A stretch of 32,974 nucleotides of DNA from an uncultured Acidobacteriia bacterium (GTDB taxonomy: Bacteria; Acidobacteriota; Terriglobia; Bryobacterales; Bryobacteraceae), in NCBI GenBank assembly GCA_903882645.1, contig CAIRXZ010000211.1, forward strand, positions 1-32,974, read 5' to 3'. Each line of letters starts with the position of its first letter. Position 1 is the stretch's first letter. Below are positions 9,431 through 26,757 of the stretch, piece after piece. Both the position numbers and the translations under genes were made by a program. The notes beneath the pieces were generated by a model. It saw only the letters and a program-made list of their open reading frames with translations, had not been told where the DNA came from and ran no database searches.

Positions 9431-9784
9431 CCGGATGTCCCGCGCCACGGGCGTAATCCACTTCTGCCTACCATGGCCCGGCAGAGCCTTGTCGGCAACT
9501 TGCACGACGCCAAAGCGCGCCAGCGTATGCACATCGCGTGTGACCGCGCTCCTGTCCCGATTCAGTCTTTTGGCTAGATCGCTGATAGACGCCGGACTCG
9601 CCTTGAGCTGCTTGAGCAGGAGCACGCGCTTCTCCGTCAAGAGATGAAGAAGAGACTCGATATCCTCGAAAGCGACGATTCGACTGGGCGGAATCGGCGC
9701 GCCACGGTCCGCGAGCATCGCGATCTTGCGGCCACGCTCAAAGAACGCCTCGACTGGTTCAACTCGGATCTCGGTCTTTCGCAC
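9413..9784 (-). CDS. tumA: TumA-type antitoxin, winged-helix DNA-binding protein
   Basis: A 123-residue protein with a winged helix-turn-helix near residues 55-100 (LLLKQLKASPASISDLAKRL, then RSAVTRDVHTLARFG). The layout fits the HVO_A0114-type putative DNA-binding proteins that pair with TumE toxins. It starts at a GTG inside tumE (26-bp overlap), so here the toxin gene comes first. It should neutralise TumE and probably represses the operon through the palindrome at the tumE start. The 3' end overlaps the convergent glycosyltransferase-like gene by 18 bp. Confidence 0.8.
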   Translation of the reverse strand: MRKTEIRVEPVEAFFERGRKIAMLADRGAPIPPSRIVAFEDIESLLHLLTEKRVLLLKQLKASPASISDLAKRLNRDRSAVTRDVHTLARFGVVQVADKALPGHGRQKWITPVARDIRLTAQL

Positions 9785-10088
9785 GGTTCACCTCTCTCAC
9801 CAGGCTCCTCCATTCCTTCTGAAAACGCGCCTCAATCTCTTCGAAGCAAGAGAACCGAACCGCGGTCTCTTTGCCCTTGTAGTGGCGGTGGTGGCGTCCA
9901 TGGGCGGAGTCGTAACCCAGGACACGGCCATTGTCGCCCGCATAAATCAGGTGGTTGATGTATGCGAGGTTGTAGCGGACGATCCGGCCCCTATGGTCGG
10001 TCCATATCTCCCGGCGCAGAATACCGTCGCCCTTGGCCATAGACGGAGAAATCCGTTCGTCCACGACCTTCCGAAGACCGCCAGCCAT
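9759..10088 (-). CDS. tumE: TumE-family toxin (DUF6516)
   Basis: A 109-residue protein with the DUF6516/TumE core: RIVRYNLAYINHLIYAGDN, then VLGYDSAHGRHHRHYKG, a His-rich Asp-containing stretch typical of the family, then RFSCFEEIEARFQKEW. It pairs with the wHTH antitoxin whose start lies within it. TumE proteins are described as toxins inhibited by TumA; the biochemical target is not visible here. The ATG at 10088 sits 5 nt after a -10-like TATCCT, so the message may be leaderless. A perfect 9-bp inverted repeat spans the start codon. Confidence 0.82.
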   Translation of the reverse strand: MAGGLRKVVDERISPSMAKGDGILRREIWTDHRGRIVRYNLAYINHLIYAGDNGRVLGYDSAHGRHHRHYKGKETAVRFSCFEEIEARFQKEWRSLVREVNRAKDRDPS

Positions 10089-10121: not shown

Positions 10122-10157
10122 CGCTCTAGTGATCGGTGGTGACAACGGAAGGCTGGG

Positions 10158-10209
10158 CCAAGGTGGGGCGGACGCCCGCGTCCGCGCGCGACCCCCTGGT
10201 CGCGCTCTT
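10158..10209 (+). repeat. 52-bp dispersed repeat, copy 1
   Basis: By eye this 52-bp block matches the reverse complement of 24704-24755 at 50 of 52 positions. It contains GTGGGGCGGAC followed by GTCCGCGCGCGACCCCCTGG. Here it lies in the 158-bp gap between tumE and rpmB and encodes nothing. The other copy forms the beginning of actE. Confidence 0.85.
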
Positions 10210-10246
10210 GCGCCGATTGTCGATTCGTACGCGGGACGGGACGACG

Positions 10247-10438
10247 CTAGGCGGTCTTCAGGACCTTGCCGTCGCGGATGCAGGATGTGCAGACGCGCAT
10301 CCGGCGGCTGGCTCCGTTCACCTTCGCGCGAACGTTCTGCAAGTTGATGTTCCAACAGCGCTTGGTGACATTGTGGGCGTGGCTGATCCGGTTGCCGAAC
10401 TTCGGCCCGCGGCCGCACACGTCGCATACTCGTGCCAT
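10247..10438 (-). CDS. rpmB: 50S ribosomal protein L28, zinc-binding form
   Basis: Large-subunit ribosomal protein of 63 residues, complete. It begins MARVCDVCGRGP and contains the L28 signature NRISHAHNVTKRCWNINLQN. Cys pairs CDVC near the start and CTSC near the end form the zinc-ribbon (C+) variant. It is a single gene with its own promoter and a good GAGGGAGA ribosome site. Flanking TA and DUF4258/DUF2283 genes make it a housekeeping island in accessory DNA. Confidence 0.97.
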   Translation of the reverse strand: MARVCDVCGRGPKFGNRISHAHNVTKRCWNINLQNVRAKVNGASRRMRVCTSCIRDGKVLKTA

Positions 10439-10472
10439 AAGACGGAAATCTCCCTCGTGGTTCTAAAATGAG

Positions 10473-11221: not shown

Positions 11222-11665
11222 CTATTTCAGCTTCTCGATCTTCTTCCGGATTTCGGCGGCGTTCTTGGCATTCGGCTCGAGCTTGAGGTAATGGGCGTAG
11301 GCTTCCCTGGCGGCTTCCTTGTCTTTGGATTTCTCCGCCGCCTCGCCCAGGTGCAGCCACGCGTCGCTATTGCCGTCGTTCCACTTGGTGGCGTCGCGGT
11401 AGCGGCCTTCCGCGGCGCGGTAGCGGCCCAGCTTGAAGTAGTAGTTGCCCACCCGCACGTCCCTCTCCGACTGGAGCGGATTGAAGGAGTAGTTCGTGAC
11501 GGCCAGCGATGTGTCCTCTTCGGGCGGGGCTTCGATGGCATCGTTGCGGGCGGGTTGCGGGCGCTCTGTCTTCAGTTCGCTCCGGTCCGGCGCCTGTTGC
11601 GGTTTGGGATCCTGCGCCTGGAGCGCCACAGCCGCGGCCAGCAGAGCCAGAATCGAGCGCATCAT
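11222..11665 (-). CDS. Secreted TPR-repeat protein
   Basis: A 147-residue exported protein. The signal peptide is MMRSILALLAAAVALQA. A Pro/Glu-rich linker follows, then from about residue 65 two to three tetratricopeptide units (RVGNYYFKLGRYRAAEGRYR, DAWLHLGEAAEKSKDKEAAR, YAHYLKLEPNAK). The start of the TPR region resembles BamD/YfiO-type proteins (SERDVRVGNYYFKLGRY), and small proteins of this sort are common in Acidobacteriota. It probably scaffolds a periplasmic or outer-membrane complex; the partner is unknown. Confidence 0.82.
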   Translation of the reverse strand: MMRSILALLAAAVALQAQDPKPQQAPDRSELKTERPQPARNDAIEAPPEEDTSLAVTNYSFNPLQSERDVRVGNYYFKLGRYRAAEGRYRDATKWNDGNSDAWLHLGEAAEKSKDKEAAREAYAHYLKLEPNAKNAAEIRKKIEKLK

Positions 11666-11684
11666 GATCCGATTTTAGCGCGGC

Positions 11685-11740
11685 AGTGGGGCGGACCTCC
11701 CGGTCTGCCTTCTTCTTGCCCGGCGGCGCGGTGGAAAACC
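11685..11740 (+). repeat. GTGGGGCGGACCTCC repeat, half copy before uvrC
   Basis: AGTGGGGCGGACCTCCCGG and the following TCTGCCTTCTT match the left arm of the hairpin at 13581-13656. The tail GTGGAAAACC also matches its loop (CTGGAAAACC), but the right arm is absent. It fills most of the gap between the TPR gene and uvrC. Confidence 0.75.
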
Positions 11741-11779
11741 GCCATGCATGGCTATACTGAAATCGAAGCCGGTCCCCCC

Positions 11780-13582
11780 ATGGAACTCCGCGATAAAGCC
11801 AGCCAGCTTCCGCTTGCGCCGGGCGTGTACCTCTACAAGGACGCCGCTGATCGCGTCATCTACGTCGGCAAGGCCAAGAGCCTGCGCAGCCGGGTCCGCA
11901 GCTACTTCTCGGAGGACAAGCTTGGGGACCTCAAAACCGGCACGCTGATTTCCGAAGCCAGGGATATCGATTACATCCTGGTCGACAACGAAAAGGAGGC
12001 CCTGGCGCTCGAGAACAACCTCATCAAGCAGTACAAGCCGCGCTTCAACATTCTCCTGCGCGACGACAAGACCTACCCCTACGTCAAGCTCACCAATGAG
12101 AAGTACCCGCGCGTGTACGTCACGCGGCGGCTGCGCAAGGACGGCGCCGCCTACTTCGGCCCTTTCTTCCCGGCCAACCTGGCGCACCGGCTGGTACACT
12201 CCATTCACCGGCATTTCCTGGTACCCTCCTGCAAAGTGGATTTGACCCGGCGCCATCCCAAGCCGTGCCTGCAATGCCACATCCATCGCTGCCTGGGACC
12301 GTGCGTCGAAGGTCTGACCACGGATGAAGCCTACGCCGCCGCGGTGCGCGACGTGAAGCTGTTCCTCGAAGGCCGCCACGGAGATCTGGCGCGCGGCCTG
12401 CGCGCGCGCATGGAAGCCGCGTCGGAAGTCATGCTATTCGAACAGGCTGCCTCCTTGCGCGACCTGCTGGCCACTGTGGAGGAGATGGAGCAGCGTCAGA
12501 AAATGGCCGCCGCCAGCGGAGACGACGTCGATATCCTGGCCTGCTACGCCGAGCCGCCCCTGGTCGCCCTGAACCTGTTCCATTTGCGCCACGGCCAGAT
12601 CGTCGACCGCCGCGAATTCTTCTGGGAGGACCGCGAGGAGTTCGAGGAACCTGCCTTTTTCTCGTCTTTGCTCAAGCAACTCTACCTGGACCAGCAGTTC
12701 ATCCCCGCGGAGATTCACGTCCCCGTGGATTTCGAGGACCAGGAAGCTCTCGAAGAGCTGCTCTCCGAGAAGCGCGGGCGGCGCGTCGAAATCCGCACCC
12801 CCCGGCGCGGGCAGAAGAAAGCCTTGCTGGTTCTTGTCGCGACCAACGCCAAACACAGCTTCGACGCCCGCTTCCGGGTGCTCAAGCCTTCCTCGCGCGC
12901 CATCCGCGAGGCGCTGCGCGACGCGCTGAACCTGCCGGACGCGCCCGCCCGCATCGAGTGTTTCGACGTCTCCCACATCCAGGGCACGGACAAGGTCGCC
13001 AGCATGGTGGTGTGGGAGGACGGCCGGATGAAGAAGGCCGATTACCGCAAGTTCATCATCCGCACCGTCATCGGCAACGACGATTTCGCGAGCATGCGCG
13101 AGGTGGTAACGCGCCGCTATTCCCGGCTTCAGGAAGAGAAGAAGCCCATGCCCGGGCTGGTGCTGATCGATGGCGGCCTCGGGCAGTTGCACGCCGCGGC
13201 CGATGCGCTCGAGGCCATCGGCGTGTCGGACCAGCCGCTGGCGGCTATCGCCAAGCGCGAAGAGACGATCTACGTATATGGCCAGGAAGACGAGCCGATT
13301 GCGCTCGACCGCTTCTCGCCCATCCTGCACCTGATCCAGTCCATTCGCGATGAAGCCCACCGCTTCGCCGTGACCTTCCACCGGTCGCGCCGCAACGCGC
13401 TCCAGCTTACCTCCGAGCTGGACGCCATCGAGGGCATCGGGCCAAAGACCGTGGTCAAGCTGCTCAAGGAATTTGGCAGCTCAGCGCTGGTGCGCGCCGC
13501 AACGGAAGACCAATTGGCCGCCGTGGCCGGCCGCGCCGCCGCCCGCCGCCTGAAAGCGCACTACCAAGCGGTCTTGTCTTAG
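11780..13582 (+). CDS. uvrC: UvrABC system protein C, excinuclease subunit
   Basis: Nucleotide excision repair nuclease that makes both incisions around a lesion after UvrA/UvrB loading. The 600-residue protein has the GIY-YIG domain at the start (GVYLYKD, VIYVGKAKSLRSRV) and four closely spaced Cys (PCLQCHIHRCLGPC, about residues 154-175) that can hold the 4Fe-4S cluster reported for UvrC. The UVR motif follows (around LFEQAASLRDLL), then the C-terminal RNase-H-like nuclease (ECFDVSHIQGT and VLIDGGLGQLHAA). Tandem helix-hairpin-helix motifs end it (IEGIGPKTVVKLLKEFG). The frame runs about 490 nt further upstream, but that part is antisense to the TPR gene; MELRDKASQLPLAPGVY matches UvrC starts. 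TATACT at 11753-11758 may be its -10 box. Confidence 0.96.
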   Translation: MELRDKASQLPLAPGVYLYKDAADRVIYVGKAKSLRSRVRSYFSEDKLGDLKTGTLISEARDIDYILVDNEKEALALENNLIKQYKPRFNILLRDDKTYPYVKLTNEKYPRVYVTRRLRKDGAAYFGPFFPANLAHRLVHSIHRHFLVPSCKVDLTRRHPKPCLQCHIHRCLGPCVEGLTTDEAYAAAVRDVKLFLEGRHGDLARGLRARMEAASEVMLFEQAASLRDLLATVEEMEQRQKMAAASGDDVDILACYAEPPLVALNLFHLRHGQIVDRREFFWEDREEFEEPAFFSSLLKQLYLDQQFIPAEIHVPVDFEDQEALEELLSEKRGRRVEIRTPRRGQKKALLVLVATNAKHSFDARFRVLKPSSRAIREALRDALNLPDAPARIECFDVSHIQGTDKVASMVVWEDGRMKKADYRKFIIRTVIGNDDFASMREVVTRRYSRLQEEKKPMPGLVLIDGGLGQLHAAADALEAIGVSDQPLAAIAKREETIYVYGQEDEPIALDRFSPILHLIQSIRDEAHRFAVTFHRSRRNALQLTSELDAIEGIGPKTVVKLLKEFGSSALVRAATEDQLAAVAGRAAARRLKAHYQAVLS

Positions 13583-13656
13583 TGGGGCGGACCTCCTGGT
13601 CTGCCTTCTTTTTGCACTGGAAAACCAAGAAGGCAGACCAGGAGGTCCGCCCCACT
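13581..13656. repeat. Perfect 30-bp hairpin element after uvrC
   Basis: The arm at 13581-13610 is exactly complementary to the arm at 13627-13656, with a 16-nt loop. The arm contains GTGGGGCGGACCTCCTGG. The left arm begins in the uvrC stop codon, and the right arm ends 8 nt before the permease start. There is no T-run, so intrinsic termination is uncertain. It looks like a REP or MITE-type mobile palindrome. Confidence 0.92.
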
Positions 13657-22959: not shown

Positions 22960-24145
22960 GTTCCAATGCCTCCCGTAAGTGCGGATCGTGAAGCGGCATC
23001 AGCGGGCGCTTCTCCAGTTGCGTAAGAAAGTACGCCAGCCAGAGGCCGAACACGCCGGCCGGAGCCGCGAAATCCAGCCAGCTCAAACCAAACGACCCTC
23101 TGAGGAAGCCGGGCGCCACAAGCCAGTAGAGGTCCACGAGGCGCATGAAAAGGACGAAAACCGCGATCCCCGCCAGCAGCTTGAAGTTTCGCTTCAAGTC
23201 GCGCGATAAGAGCAGGGCGAAAGGCAGGGCGAAGTGCCCGAACACCAGCGCCAATCCGACGTATTGCCATCCGCCGCGCATTCGCGCCAGGTACCAGGGA
23301 ATTTCGCTCGGCAGGTTGGCCGACCAGATAATCAGGAACTGCGAAAACGAAAAATAGGCCCACACCATCACCAGGGCCAGGAGGAACTTGCCGAGGTCGT
23401 GGAGGTGGCGCGGCGTGAGGATCTCCGACATGGGCCGGCGGAAGGAAAGCAGCGCCATCAAGGCGATCAGGAAGGCCATCGCGGAGAGCGCCTGGCCGGC
23501 CATGAACATCATGCCGAAGATCGTCGAGAACCACTTCGGGTCGAGCGAAAGCACCCAATCGATCGCCATGAAGGTGACGCTGAAGCCCCAGAACAAGAGG
23601 CCCGGGCCGGCAAGCGCCGCGAGTTTCCGGCTGGCGGGGCCGGGGCCATCGCGGTCCTCCGCGGCCGACCAGCGGTTGAAGAACCAGGAAAGCAGCAGCC
23701 AGCCGCCGAGGTACGCCGCCGCGCGGACGAGGAAGAACGGCACGTTCAGGTATGCGTGCTTGTGCTGGAGGATCTCGTCGGCGGCCACGATTTTCGGGTG
23801 CGACCACTGGTACAGGTTGGGGATGCCGACTATGATCGGCAGAAACATCAGGGCCACCAGCGGAAGGGTCCGCGCCGCGGCTTCGCAGGGCCGCCGGATG
23901 ACGACGCCCCAGGCGCCGCCGGTGACATATTGCAGCATCAGCCAGGCCAGCGACCCGGCGCTCAACCCGACGACGAACAGGTACGACCACAGGTAAGAGC
24001 GGAAGAACTGAAACGGCGCGCGGAGGAACCCGGCGGCGCACAGGGCGGCGCCCAGGAGGCCGACGGCGAGGGCGCGCTTGCGCCACCGGCGCAGCTCGGC
24101 GCGCAGTTCGGAGCCGATATCGAAATCGAGCGAGGCGGAGGTCAT
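22946..24145 (-). CDS. actF: ACIII membrane subunit ActF (NrfD-like, quinol side)
   Basis: Polytopic membrane subunit of alternative complex III, 399 residues with about ten helices. The acidic cytoplasmic start is followed by helices that resemble ActC/NrfD; useful landmarks are WSHPKIVAADEILQHKHAYL, FNRWSAAED, WVLSLDPKWFSTIFGMMFMA and FSQFLIIWSANLPSEIPWYL. These are standard ActF blocks. It is translated from an ATGA overlap with actE (4 bp) and overlaps the next gene by 14 bp. Confidence 0.93.
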   Translation of the reverse strand: MTSASLDFDIGSELRAELRRWRKRALAVGLLGAALCAAGFLRAPFQFFRSYLWSYLFVVGLSAGSLAWLMLQYVTGGAWGVVIRRPCEAAARTLPLVALMFLPIIVGIPNLYQWSHPKIVAADEILQHKHAYLNVPFFLVRAAAYLGGWLLLSWFFNRWSAAEDRDGPGPASRKLAALAGPGLLFWGFSVTFMAIDWVLSLDPKWFSTIFGMMFMAGQALSAMAFLIALMALLSFRRPMSEILTPRHLHDLGKFLLALVMVWAYFSFSQFLIIWSANLPSEIPWYLARMRGGWQYVGLALVFGHFALPFALLLSRDLKRNFKLLAGIAVFVLFMRLVDLYWLVAPGFLRGSFGLSWLDFAAPAGVFGLWLAYFLTQLEKRPLMPLHDPHLREALEHGRE

Positions 24146-24750
24146 TTCCGGGCCTCCAATTGCTCGCGCGCCTCCGGCGGCACATCGCCGATCGAGGCGT
24201 TCTGGCTCAACTGGAGGGCGCGCACGTAAGCCACGATGGCCCAGCGGTCGCGCGGCTCGATTTGCGCGGCGTAGTCCTGCATGGCGCCGAAACCGCTGGA
24301 GATCACGCCGTAGAGATATCCGCTCGGCGCGTTGCGCAGGCGGTCTATGTGATAGGAGGGCGGGCGCCGGAAGCCGCGGCGGACGATCATGCCGCCGCCA
24401 TCGCCGAGGCGGCCATGGCACGGGGCGCAGTAGATGTCGAAGCGCTGCCCGCCGCGCTCGATGATGTCCTTGGTCACCGGAAAGGGGAAGGCCTCGACGG
24501 GTTGTCCGTCCGGTCCTTTGCCGGTGTAGTATTCCGCGTCGCCGTTGAGATGGCCGCGCGCGACCGTGCCCTCCGCCAGCGGCCGTTCGGAGCGTCCGTC
24601 GGCGAAGAAGTCGCTGGGCCGCAGCGGAATGTACTTGGGCTGGTCGTGCATGTCCTGGCGGCAGGCGGAGGAGGCGAGGGCGAGCAGCACGGCAGCTAAG
24701 GCGAAGAGCGCGACCAGGGGGTCGCGCGCGGACGAGGGCGTCCGCCCCAC
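24142..24750 (-). CDS. actE: ACIII subunit ActE, monoheme cytochrome c lipoprotein
   Basis: Periplasmic monoheme cytochrome c of alternative complex III that takes electrons towards the oxidase. A lipoprotein signal (LVALFALAAVLLALASSAC) is followed by DMHDQPKY, typical of ActE. The heme site is CAPCH, and AMQDYAAQ carries the likely Met ligand. The start is the problem: the native-looking part begins inside a 52-bp dispersed repeat. A GTG at 24750 in the repeat would give MGRTPSSARDPLVALF as the beginning of a good signal peptide, about 202 residues in all. The frame stays open to an ATG at 24858, but that extension runs through simple repeats. The 3' end overlaps actF by 4 bp. Confidence 0.88.
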   Translation of the reverse strand: MGRTPSSARDPLVALFALAAVLLALASSACRQDMHDQPKYIPLRPSDFFADGRSERPLAEGTVARGHLNGDAEYYTGKGPDGQPVEAFPFPVTKDIIERGGQRFDIYCAPCHGRLGDGGGMIVRRGFRRPPSYHIDRLRNAPSGYLYGVISSGFGAMQDYAAQIEPRDRWAIVAYVRALQLSQNASIGDVPPEAREQLEARK

Positions 24751-24755
24751 CTTTG
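24704..24755 (-). repeat. 52-bp dispersed repeat, copy 2 (forms the actE start)
   Basis: Reverse complement of 10158-10209 with two differences in 52 positions. On the minus strand it contains the proposed GTG start of actE and its first 15 or so codons. Confidence 0.85.
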
Positions 24756-24776
24756 CCCGATCAAGGTGGGCCGCGG

Positions 24777-24792
24777 GCCGGGCATGCCCGGC
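24777..24792. repeat. Perfect palindrome GCCGGGCATGCCCGGC
   Basis: A 16-bp perfect palindrome followed by CCCTACG, homologous to 22432-22457. It lies in the 97-bp actD-actE gap. Confidence 0.75.
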
Positions 24793-24811
24793 CCCTACGC
24801 CGGGGCGCGGC

Positions 24812-24846
24812 CTTCCGACTTCCGACTCCCGACTTCTGTCTCCTGT
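24812..24846. repeat. Heptamer tandem repeat (CTTCCGA-like x5)
   Basis: Five consecutive 7-nt units: CTTCCGA, CTTCCGA, CTCCCGA, CTTCTGT, CTCCTGT. The array ends one base from the actD stop codon. Confidence 0.8.
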
Positions 24847-24847
24847 T

Positions 24848-25381
24848 TCAGTGGGCAACTTCAGACACCTCTTTAGGGTCCAGGGTCAGCAGGAATTCGC
24901 CGGTTTGGGCGCGATCGAACAGCGGGTCCCTGGATTCGATGCACAGGAAGAAACGGTTGCGCGAAGCCAGCGCAAAGCGCGGCGCATTGAAGACCGGATG
25001 ATAAGGCATTGGCAGCCCGCACAACGCGAGAAGGCCGAGCACCGCCGAGAGGGCCGCAAACAGAATGGTGGTTTCGAAGGCGATGACGACGTAGGACGGC
25101 CAGCTATGGAGCGGCCGGCCCGCGATGTTGATGGGGTAATACCAGACCGTGACGAAGTATTGCAGGAGATATCCGGCGATGAGGCCCGCGATGCCGCCGG
25201 CGAGCACGATCAGCGGCAGCTTGTTCTTGTGGAGATCGAGCGCGCCGCTCAGGTCCTCGATGGGGAAGGGAGAGTATGCGTCGAGCTTGCGATATCCCTT
25301 CTCGCGCGCGGCGCGGGCGGCGCGGACCAGCGCGGTGGGACTGTCGAACTCCGCCATGAGTCCGTAGATGGGCGTGGTCAC
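24848..25381 (-). CDS. actD: ACIII subunit ActD
   Basis: Two-helix membrane subunit of alternative complex III, 177 residues (DUF3341 family). Cytoplasmic part: IYGLMAEFDSPTALVRAARA, then GYRKLDAYSPFPIEDL. The helices are LPLIVLAGGIAGLIAGYLLQ and VIAFETTILFAALSAVLGLL, with the conserved YPINIAGRPLHSWPSYV between them. It starts at a GTG that overlaps the actC stop (GTGA, 4 bp). The stop is followed one base later by a heptamer repeat. Confidence 0.94.
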   Translation of the reverse strand: MTTPIYGLMAEFDSPTALVRAARAAREKGYRKLDAYSPFPIEDLSGALDLHKNKLPLIVLAGGIAGLIAGYLLQYFVTVWYYPINIAGRPLHSWPSYVVIAFETTILFAALSAVLGLLALCGLPMPYHPVFNAPRFALASRNRFFLCIESRDPLFDRAQTGEFLLTLDPKEVSEVAH

Positions 25382-26757
25382 GGGCGCGACTCCTTTTCGA
25401 CCTTGGCCTGCGGCAACAGCGTGCGGACCTCGAAGATCGAGATCATGGGCAGCAGGCGGATGAACAGGAAGAACAGGAACAGAAACATGCCGATGGTGCC
25501 AAGGTAGGTGGCCCAGTCCCAGCGGGTGGCGTGGAAGATGCCCCACGAGGAGTTCATGAAATCCTGCGCCAGGCTGGAGACGATGATGACGTAGCGCTCG
25601 AGCCACATGCCCACCAGCACGAAGATCGACGATATGAACAGCGCGACCGGGCTGGTGCGCACCCGTTTGAACCACAGCGCCTGCGGGAGGAGGATGTTGC
25701 AAGTGATAAGCGCCCAGTAGCTGAAGGCGTACGGTCCGGTCATGCGATGCCAGATGGCCGCCTGCTCGAAGACGTCGCCGCTATACCAGGCGGTGAACGT
25801 TTCGAGAATGTAGGCGTAGGCGACGATCAGGCCGGTGGCCAGCATCACCTTGGCGGCGTTCTCGAGGTGCTTGCCGGTGATGAGGCCCTGGAGGCCGTAG
25901 ACCGAGCGGACCGGAATGGCCAGGGCCAGGACCATGGCGAAGCCGGAGTAAATCGCGCCGGCCACGAAGTAGGGCGGGAAGAAAGTGCTGTGCCATCCGG
26001 GCACGATGGCGATGGTGAAATCGAAGCTGACGACGGTGTGGACCGAAAGCACCAAGGGCGTCGCCAAGCCGGCCAGCAGCAGCGAGGCCGTCTCATAGAC
26101 GCTCCAGTGACGCGCCGAACCGCGCCAACCCAGGGCCATGACGCCGTAGACTAAGCGCGCGATACGGTTCCCGGCGCGGTCGCGCAGCGTGGCGAGATCG
26201 GGCATGAGGCCGACGTACCAGAACAAGAGCGAGACGGTGGCGTAGGTGGAGACCGCGAACACGTCCCAAACCAGCGGGCTGCGGAAATTCGGCATGACGC
26301 CCATGCTGTTGGGGAGAGGGAACAGCCAGTAGAAAAGCCACGGCCGGCCCAGGTGCAACAGCGGGAACATGCCCGCGCACGCCACCGCGAACAGCGTCAT
26401 GGCTTCGGCGAAGCGGTTGATGGAATTGCGCCACCTCTGGTTCAGCAGAAGCAGAATGGCCGAAATCAGCGTGCCCGCGTGGCCGATGCCGATCCACCAC
26501 ACGAAGTTGGTGATGGCGAAGCCCCACATTACGGGCGTGCGGATGCCCCAGATGCCCACGCCCTTGGCCAGCAGCATCGCCACGGCCCACAAGAACAGCA
26601 GCAGCAGTCCGAACCCGACGGAGAAGCAGGCCATCCAGAAGACCGGCGTGCGCTTGGTGAGCACCACGGCGGCGATCTGGTCCGTGATGCTCCCGAACGT
26701 GTAGCCGGGGGCGATGACGTCGCGGGGCGGGTCGGCGAGTTGGGTGTCATCTGCCAT
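25378..26757 (-). CDS. actC: ACIII subunit ActC, NrfD/PsrC-like membrane protein
   Basis: Quinol-oxidising membrane subunit of alternative complex III, 459 residues with about ten helices. NrfD-type blocks include VWWIGIGHAGTLISAILLLL, PLLHLGRPWLFYWLFPLPNS, VVSFDFTIAIVPGWHSTFFP and MWLERYVIIVSSLAQDFM. It works with ActB to pass electrons from quinol and may contribute to energy conservation. A repeat-filled gap of 267 bp separates it from actB, unlike most other junctions, and no clear new promoter is visible there. Confidence 0.96.
   Translation of the reverse strand: MADDTQLADPPRDVIAPGYTFGSITDQIAAVVLTKRTPVFWMACFSVGFGLLLLFLWAVAMLLAKGVGIWGIRTPVMWGFAITNFVWWIGIGHAGTLISAILLLLNQRWRNSINRFAEAMTLFAVACAGMFPLLHLGRPWLFYWLFPLPNSMGVMPNFRSPLVWDVFAVSTYATVSLLFWYVGLMPDLATLRDRAGNRIARLVYGVMALGWRGSARHWSVYETASLLLAGLATPLVLSVHTVVSFDFTIAIVPGWHSTFFPPYFVAGAIYSGFAMVLALAIPVRSVYGLQGLITGKHLENAAKVMLATGLIVAYAYILETFTAWYSGDVFEQAAIWHRMTGPYAFSYWALITCNILLPQALWFKRVRTSPVALFISSIFVLVGMWLERYVIIVSSLAQDFMNSSWGIFHATRWDWATYLGTIGMFLFLFFLFIRLLPMISIFEVRTLLPQAKVEKESRP

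Follow-up and report, generated by a model that had tools for sequence, protein, structure and literature searches.

The window, the whole stretch of 32,974 nucleotides that was analysed (contig C211 of genome G000, an assembly of 366 contigs and 5.27 Mb), carries an alternative complex III (ACIII) gene cluster on its minus strand. We identified a gene for an ActB-like large iron-sulfur protein, assigned from its position and Fer4 domains, the NrfD-like actC (25378-26757, minus), and actD (24848..25381, minus, upstream end approximate), which was found by a codon-usage gene caller and matched Pfam ActD (PF11821, 1.2e-60). The actD stop codon, TGA, lies at 24848-24850 (minus). An open frame at 24142..24858 (minus) follows, with SCO1 and cytochrome oxidase genes downstream. 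Its translation matched Pfam Cytochrome_CBB3 (1.4e-10) and the PDB chains 8k9e_E (cytochrome c domain-containing protein, 8.3e-52), 6f0k_E (quinol:cytochrome c oxidoreductase monoheme cytochrome subunit, 2.9e-46), and 6btm_E (Alternative Complex III subunit E, 1.3e-13). The heme motif CxxCH is present in the form CAPCH, and the act gene order is kept, with ActD and the NrfD-like ActC adjoining. Judged by its predicted product, the gene is the monoheme cytochrome ActE of alternative complex III. The nearest named relatives include Bryobacterales and Candidatus Solibacter MAGs. One contig labelled Bifidobacterium breve (L121) carries an Acidobacteria-like actE and is probably from a mislabelled MAG.

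In ActE, a hydrophobic stretch precedes the Cys of the conserved CRQDMHDQ (codon at 24661..24663, minus), which would be the first residue of the mature predicted lipoprotein. This Cys is kept in most relatives. The putative lipobox of the window reads SSAC, without the Leu that is usual in a lipobox. In the relatives, the end of actD overlaps the start of actE. A common junction form is GAGGTGTCCGAAGTTGCGCACTAA, whose TTG, 11 nt ahead of the stop-codon end, opens M-R-T-N or a similar sequence, followed by the hydrophobic stretch up to the Cys. The window junction reads GAGGTGTCTGAAGTTGCCCACTGA, and the frame is open from the TTG at 24856-24858 across every repeat module as far as the putative lipobox Cys. 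The gap between the actD stop and the Cys codon is 184 nt in the window versus 46 nt in the commonest case, an increase of 138 nt comprising three repeat modules, and repeat material makes up nearly everything from the actD stop up to the hydrophobic core of ActE. The predicted signal peptide spans about 65 residues, versus 19 in the same-genus relative L012. Within the genus, genomes G001 and G002 lack an insert and G003 carries a different one.

The first module (TGAAACAGGAGACAGAAGTCGGGAGTCGGAAG type; 24811..24850, minus) has five other listed matches (87-92%), two of which start at query position 1 and so begin with the actD TGA; as a guess, this module may have brought the present actD stop. 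The second module (24770..24807, minus; query positions about 44-81) has dozens of listed matches and holds the palindrome GGGCCGGGCATGCCCGGCCC at 24775-24794. The third is a 55-bp REP-like repeat, read as VGRTPSSARDPLVALF (24704..24758, minus), with two hairpins at 24728-24745 and 24708-24727. RNA folding of this copy on the coding strand gave z = -3.74 for its two adjacent hairpins, and the whole window insert gave z = -0.6.

The repeat search of the window and the subsequent alignment paired 24704-24758 (minus) with 10155-10209 (plus) over 55 nt at 96% (53/55 bases identical), in inverted orientation. The initial annotation had reported a 52-bp repeat identical at 50 of 52 positions to 10158-10209, which the alignment confirmed, with 2 mismatches in 55 nt. 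A whole-genome search, with 50 matches listed and 40 of 82 candidate stretches scored, gave at least 47 matches at E<=2.4e-5, so the pairing is not a chance resemblance. Some of the copies form inverted pairs, and several sit shortly after the 3' end of the preceding gene. Among the 30 best-matching copies with loci, 27 lie outside the genes called by a simple codon-usage gene caller, and the other three lie in actE (L041), a rimI-like ORF (L060), and an error-prone polymerase gene (L065). The head of the unit is GGTGGGGCGGAC. Reading of the unit found no GTAG, and CGTC occurs solely within the first hairpin, at neither end. We therefore call it REP-like rather than a REP, because the GTAG/CGTC end tag that serves as the criterion in PMC3733652 is missing. 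Rfam gave no match in the window at gathering thresholds.

The second window copy (10155..10209, plus) is intergenic, between a TumE-like toxin gene (9759-10088, minus; 1.7e-6) and the gene for ribosomal protein L28 (10247-10438, minus). The codon-usage caller placed no gene on it. A mechanical ORF at 10136-10471 (plus) reads the repeat in the frame used in actE, yet it runs antisense over the L28 gene; the copy is therefore best read as non-coding, and the description of this site as such in the initial annotation was a fair reading. The rimI-like acetyltransferase ORF (L060, 1481-1960, ATG at 1481) runs through the repeat in the frame that actE uses, and we considered it as a parallel case. 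It proved ambiguous: its score is slightly below the rimI cut-off, relatives begin near the domain (e.g., MLEIRPG in L260), and an alternative TTG five codons ahead of the aligned domain could be the start. In L065 (1-2206), the coding sequence of an error-prone DNA polymerase (PRK05672 at 6e-276, scoring slightly below the cut-off) contains an in-frame inverted pair of the 55-bp repeat family at about 1440-1543. Elsewhere in the window lies a AGTGGGGCGGACC repeat (13580-13656, plus) whose head shares bases with the TAG stop codon of uvrC (11291-13582). Its two 30-nt arms, 13581-13610 and 13627-13656, are perfect inverted copies of each other.

The most likely start of actE is the TTG at 24856..24858 (minus), which overlaps the 3' end of actD and has a conserved position in relatives. 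A Shine-Dalgarno-like GAGGTG (24866..24871, minus) lies within actD, 7 nt ahead of this TTG. The initial annotation had placed the start at an in-frame GTG inside the repeat (24748..24750, minus). This GTG is present and opens VGRTPSSARDPLVALFALAAVLLALASSAC, as claimed, and the codon-usage gene caller chose the same codon as the actE start; AAAG is immediately adjacent to it, leaving no spacer for Shine-Dalgarno pairing. If the TTG is the start, the peptide encoded upstream of 24750 includes, e.g., GRPRPGVGAGHARPAAHLDR.

We compared the actD/actE junctions of 127 family loci, leaving out L226 (unreadable bases) and L151, L152, L153, and L162 (contig ends, without actD). L037, L039, and L040 were included although they are weaker than the 1e-55 cut used for the main family search; further matching places outside the set were G199:C375, G087:C249, G090:C826, and G091:C108. 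The start was assigned as the last in-frame start codon between 40 nt before and 2 nt after the actD stop. Among the 122 junctions in which actD was found, TTG occurs at -11 in 64 and at -14 in 15, and 41 of the remaining 43 have another in-frame start that overlaps or touches the end of actD. A start that overlaps or touches the actD end is thus present in 120/122 junctions, in relatives with and without inserts, which favors a start at the overlap.

Between the actD stop and the Cys codon, 98 junctions have a gap of 34-74 nt and the other 24 one of 79-374 nt; the cut-off of 79 nt for a long insert was chosen once this distribution was known. We rejected L212 as an insert locus. Its actD is apparently split by a frameshift, and the real end of the gene gives an ordinary 37-nt gap, leaving long inserts in 23 of 121 family junctions, from 18 genera. 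Read from the conserved start, 22 of these 23 inserts are open and keep the frame (binomial p 5e-10 against 1/3); shared ancestry makes such p values optimistic, and the per-genus count is safer (17/18, p 1e-7, or 16/17, p 3e-7, with L017 and L174 merged). These two loci carry the same 48-bp piece at the same place, and their inserts may represent one event. With a cut-off of 100 nt, 17 of 18 inserts were open and in frame. Shuffled versions of the 22 open inserts were open in 15-80% of cases, before an extra factor of three for the frame, and the joint chance of all 22 being in frame and open was 10^-18.2 (mononucleotide shuffles). For the window taken alone, an in-frame open insert is expected at about 1/3 x 0.5, or about one in six, which makes the frame argument weak there. 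GAGGT occurs within 18 nt ahead of the overlap start in 21 of the 23 insert loci, being missing in L211 and L040.

Codon choice was also examined at the Val codon in which GTT is needed to keep the TTG. Of 22 insert loci with Val at this position, 17 use GTT, as do 52 of 80 loci without inserts; the background, counted over actD and actE of 16 insert loci with the tested codons included, is 40 GTT among 312 Val codons (13%). The invariable GTT in the 16 loci with TTG at -11 is circular, as these were picked for TTG, so that 17/22 alone is informative, itself subject to shared ancestry. The window insert looks recent, given its 53/55 identity to another copy, and retention of the TTG in the window may therefore be passive.

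The exception is L040, whose 374-nt insert contains a stop and is closed, so that its actE start must lie downstream. In this locus, the overlap ATG of actD opens another frame of 112 codons that ends just past the new actE start, an arrangement possibly involving frameshift or re-initiation.

The inserts are not of one kind, and those from different genera have pieces of several palindromic families in common. Pieces of one family are common to L157, L167, L170, L175, L211, and L040, a second family is common to L016, L154, and L159, and a third to L174 and L215. We checked four of the 22 other insert loci for dispersed repeats in their own genomes. The inserts of L154, L174, and L170 were dispersed, and that of L244 matched itself and at most one further place. 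Among the 23 whole inserts folded, strong folding was found for L174 (z -8.7), L170 (-7.2), L017 (-4.4), and L244 (-4.2), followed by L154 (-3.8), L016 (-2.4), and L173 (-2.0); folding was not strong in the other 16, the window insert included. A search for selection of positive charge in the n-region inserts compared the read frame with the other frames of the same inserts and found no difference in net charge (p 0.50). There is thus no sign that the inserts were selected for charge.

These results bear on where translation of actE begins. The reading that the repeat gives a new GTG start at 24748-24750, 29 residues ahead of the Cys, with the old TTG abandoned, would yield a signal sequence of ordinary length, coincides with the choice of the codon-usage caller, and finds a parallel in the downstream shift of the start in L040. 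Against it stand the conserved TTG and GAGGTG, the AAAG that abuts the GTG, and the frame kept at 22 of 23 insert loci. In addition, five of the 23 insert loci (L154, L157, L167, L170, and L175) have no ATG, GTG, or TTG behind the actD stop 14-45 codons ahead of the Cys, and hence no replacement start. We regard this reading as unlikely. Since the frame is kept from the overlap start in 22/23 loci, which would otherwise be needless, starts do not appear to be renewed inside the inserts. The proposal that the repeat is the source of the actE start is thus not upheld; a start at 24858, which the initial annotation had itself named as the outcome that would speak against it, is the better supported of the two. 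The birth of a functional N-terminus from the repeat holds in part, for the predicted signal-peptide sequence read in the actE frame and not for the start codon.

Translation might also begin at both codons, at the TTG through coupling to actD and additionally at the GTG, in which case the repeat would add an internal start. Both codons are open and in frame. The GTG lacks a spaced Shine-Dalgarno-like motif, and the same five insert loci have no comparable second start, which leaves this arrangement slightly less likely again than a GTG start alone. Much less probable is that the repeat is an untranslated hairpin spacer, with translation starting downstream at the GTG at 24690. A precedent is offered by PMC3733652, which argues this for most REPs at 5' ends in P. 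putida, C. koseri, and S. maltophilia, but a start at 24690 leaves nine residues ahead of the Cys, without a basic n-region, and would not account for the preservation of frame in the relatives. A damaged actE or a misassembled junction, conceivable in a fragmented assembly of 366 contigs where repeats can misjoin contigs, is the most improbable, as the genes on both sides are syntenic, complete in length, and undamaged, and different inserts occupy this place in other genomes.

We therefore return to the TTG at the overlap and consider it highly probable that actE starts at 24856-24858 and that REP-like palindromes landed behind the actD stop, lengthening the n-region of the signal peptide. 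The 55-bp repeat very probably lies in the actE frame and forms part of the predicted ActE signal peptide, namely the n-region and the first hydrophobic residues. Most likely, to judge from the reading frames, it lengthens the n-region rather than supplying the start.

The neighboring junctions of the same loci served as controls. Long inserts were found at actC/actD in 2 of 121 loci, versus 24 (23 without L212) at actD/actE, and at actE/actF in 1 of 43 loci, versus 12 of 43 at actD/actE (Fisher p 7e-6 for 23 versus 2 of 120, and p 0.0016 for 12 versus 1 of 43). Three of the 121 actC/actD distances (L031, L186, and L207) were negative and are unreliable. All three neighboring-junction inserts are closed, with the downstream gene beginning at an ATG past the insert; two of them, L213 and L214, come from the same genus. 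The actE/actF insert of L161 carries an inverted pair of the 55-bp repeat family and is closed. In this locus, actF begins at an ATGA directly after the insert, and a second ATGA precedes the insert.

A possible source of the palindromes is suggested by the Y1 transposases. This genome has seven Y1_Tnp matches, six of them above the cut-off, and we examined five Y1 loci (L254-L258). The Y1 gene of L256 has the GGGCCGGGCATGCCCGGCCC palindrome, also found in the window actE insert, on both sides; that of L257 has repeats of the L167/L170 family on one side; and that of L258 lies between sister repeats that share the GTGGGGCGGAC head and are not the 55-bp unit itself. L254 and L255 have Y1 genes with other inverted repeats. 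Of the three palindrome families at L256-L258, two are thus shared with actE inserts, and the remaining one is a sister family to the 55-bp repeat.

Y1 (RAYT-like) transposases probably mobilise the palindromes, which would have landed at or immediately past the actD stop. The overlap of the actE start with this stop would put the landing spot inside actE, from about codon 4, in the n-region of the predicted lipoprotein signal peptide. The survivors would be solely those inserts that lack a stop and keep the frame. The n-region may tolerate inserts as few demands are made ahead of the hydrophobic core, and since, on export, it would be removed by the cut at the Cys. The excess of inserts at actD/actE would then follow from the start overlapping the stop together with an n-region that bears insertion. 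On a broader reading, REPs have used the actD/actE junction repeatedly as a landing pad, where those behind a stop become coding if the next start overlaps and the n-region is disposable, and where different REP families independently rewrote the same n-region family-wide; we consider this generalisation about as likely as not. If true, it would provide a general, testable rule for mobile palindromes turning into protein, the suggested requirements being an overlap start and a cleaved signal peptide. A practical caution is that gene callers may put starts inside such repeats, as happened for actE here.

A literature search found nothing on actE repeats or on REPs turned coding at overlapping junctions, which is weak evidence, as most subscription journals lay outside its coverage. 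ActE is described in the consulted part of PMC5928083 as a monoheme cytochrome c with a proposed lipobox, Cys24 of the Rhodothermus protein being the suggested lipid site. The Rhodothermus protein thus has 23 residues ahead of the Cys, in contrast to the 65 predicted in the window.

Mobile repeats within predicted signal peptides have been described among enterobacterial RU/MITE ORFs (PMC2759123). As far as seen in that source, these are single predicted cases without a frame test, whereas the present case involves an identified respiratory gene, a conserved start, and parallel insertions. Rickettsia palindromic elements (RPEs) are palindromes kept in frame within genes, some of them NH2-terminal and expressed, according to the parts of PMC10969869 and PMC3733652 consulted. 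The actE insert resembles them in that it is apparently read in frame, with the host frame open on both sides (the window and 21 other loci, 22/23). It differs from RPEs in its host, and in that the element here is mostly intergenic (27/30 best-matching copies) and is tolerated within a predicted signal peptide that would be cleaved off.

Another close comparison is with the intragenic REPs of PMC3733652. In the sections consulted, these carry GTAG and CGTC tags, often lie at the NH2 end of reading frames, and are found mostly just past the 3' end of the preceding gene, and DnaE2 is named among the REP-bearing genes. Both systems involve short mobile palindromes in reading frames and a DnaE2-type target, here L065. 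Unlike those REPs, the inserts described here share one recurrent overlapping-gene site and derive from several repeat families, and the 55-bp unit contains no GTAG. The same source cites the expression of Rickettsia proteins with an N-terminal RPE-1, and the translation of N-terminal palindromes is therefore not in itself novel. The new element here, for which the literature search gave no precedent, is a single signal peptide in which repeats have landed repeatedly with the frame preserved. The consulted text doubts the translation of most 5'-end REPs in three species, and the question was left in doubt there for several species, whereas the frame test on the 23 insert loci favors translation. 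The actD/actE inserts of 18 genera thus constitute a natural experiment, and their preservation of frame may offer an answer on whether 5'-end REPs are translated.
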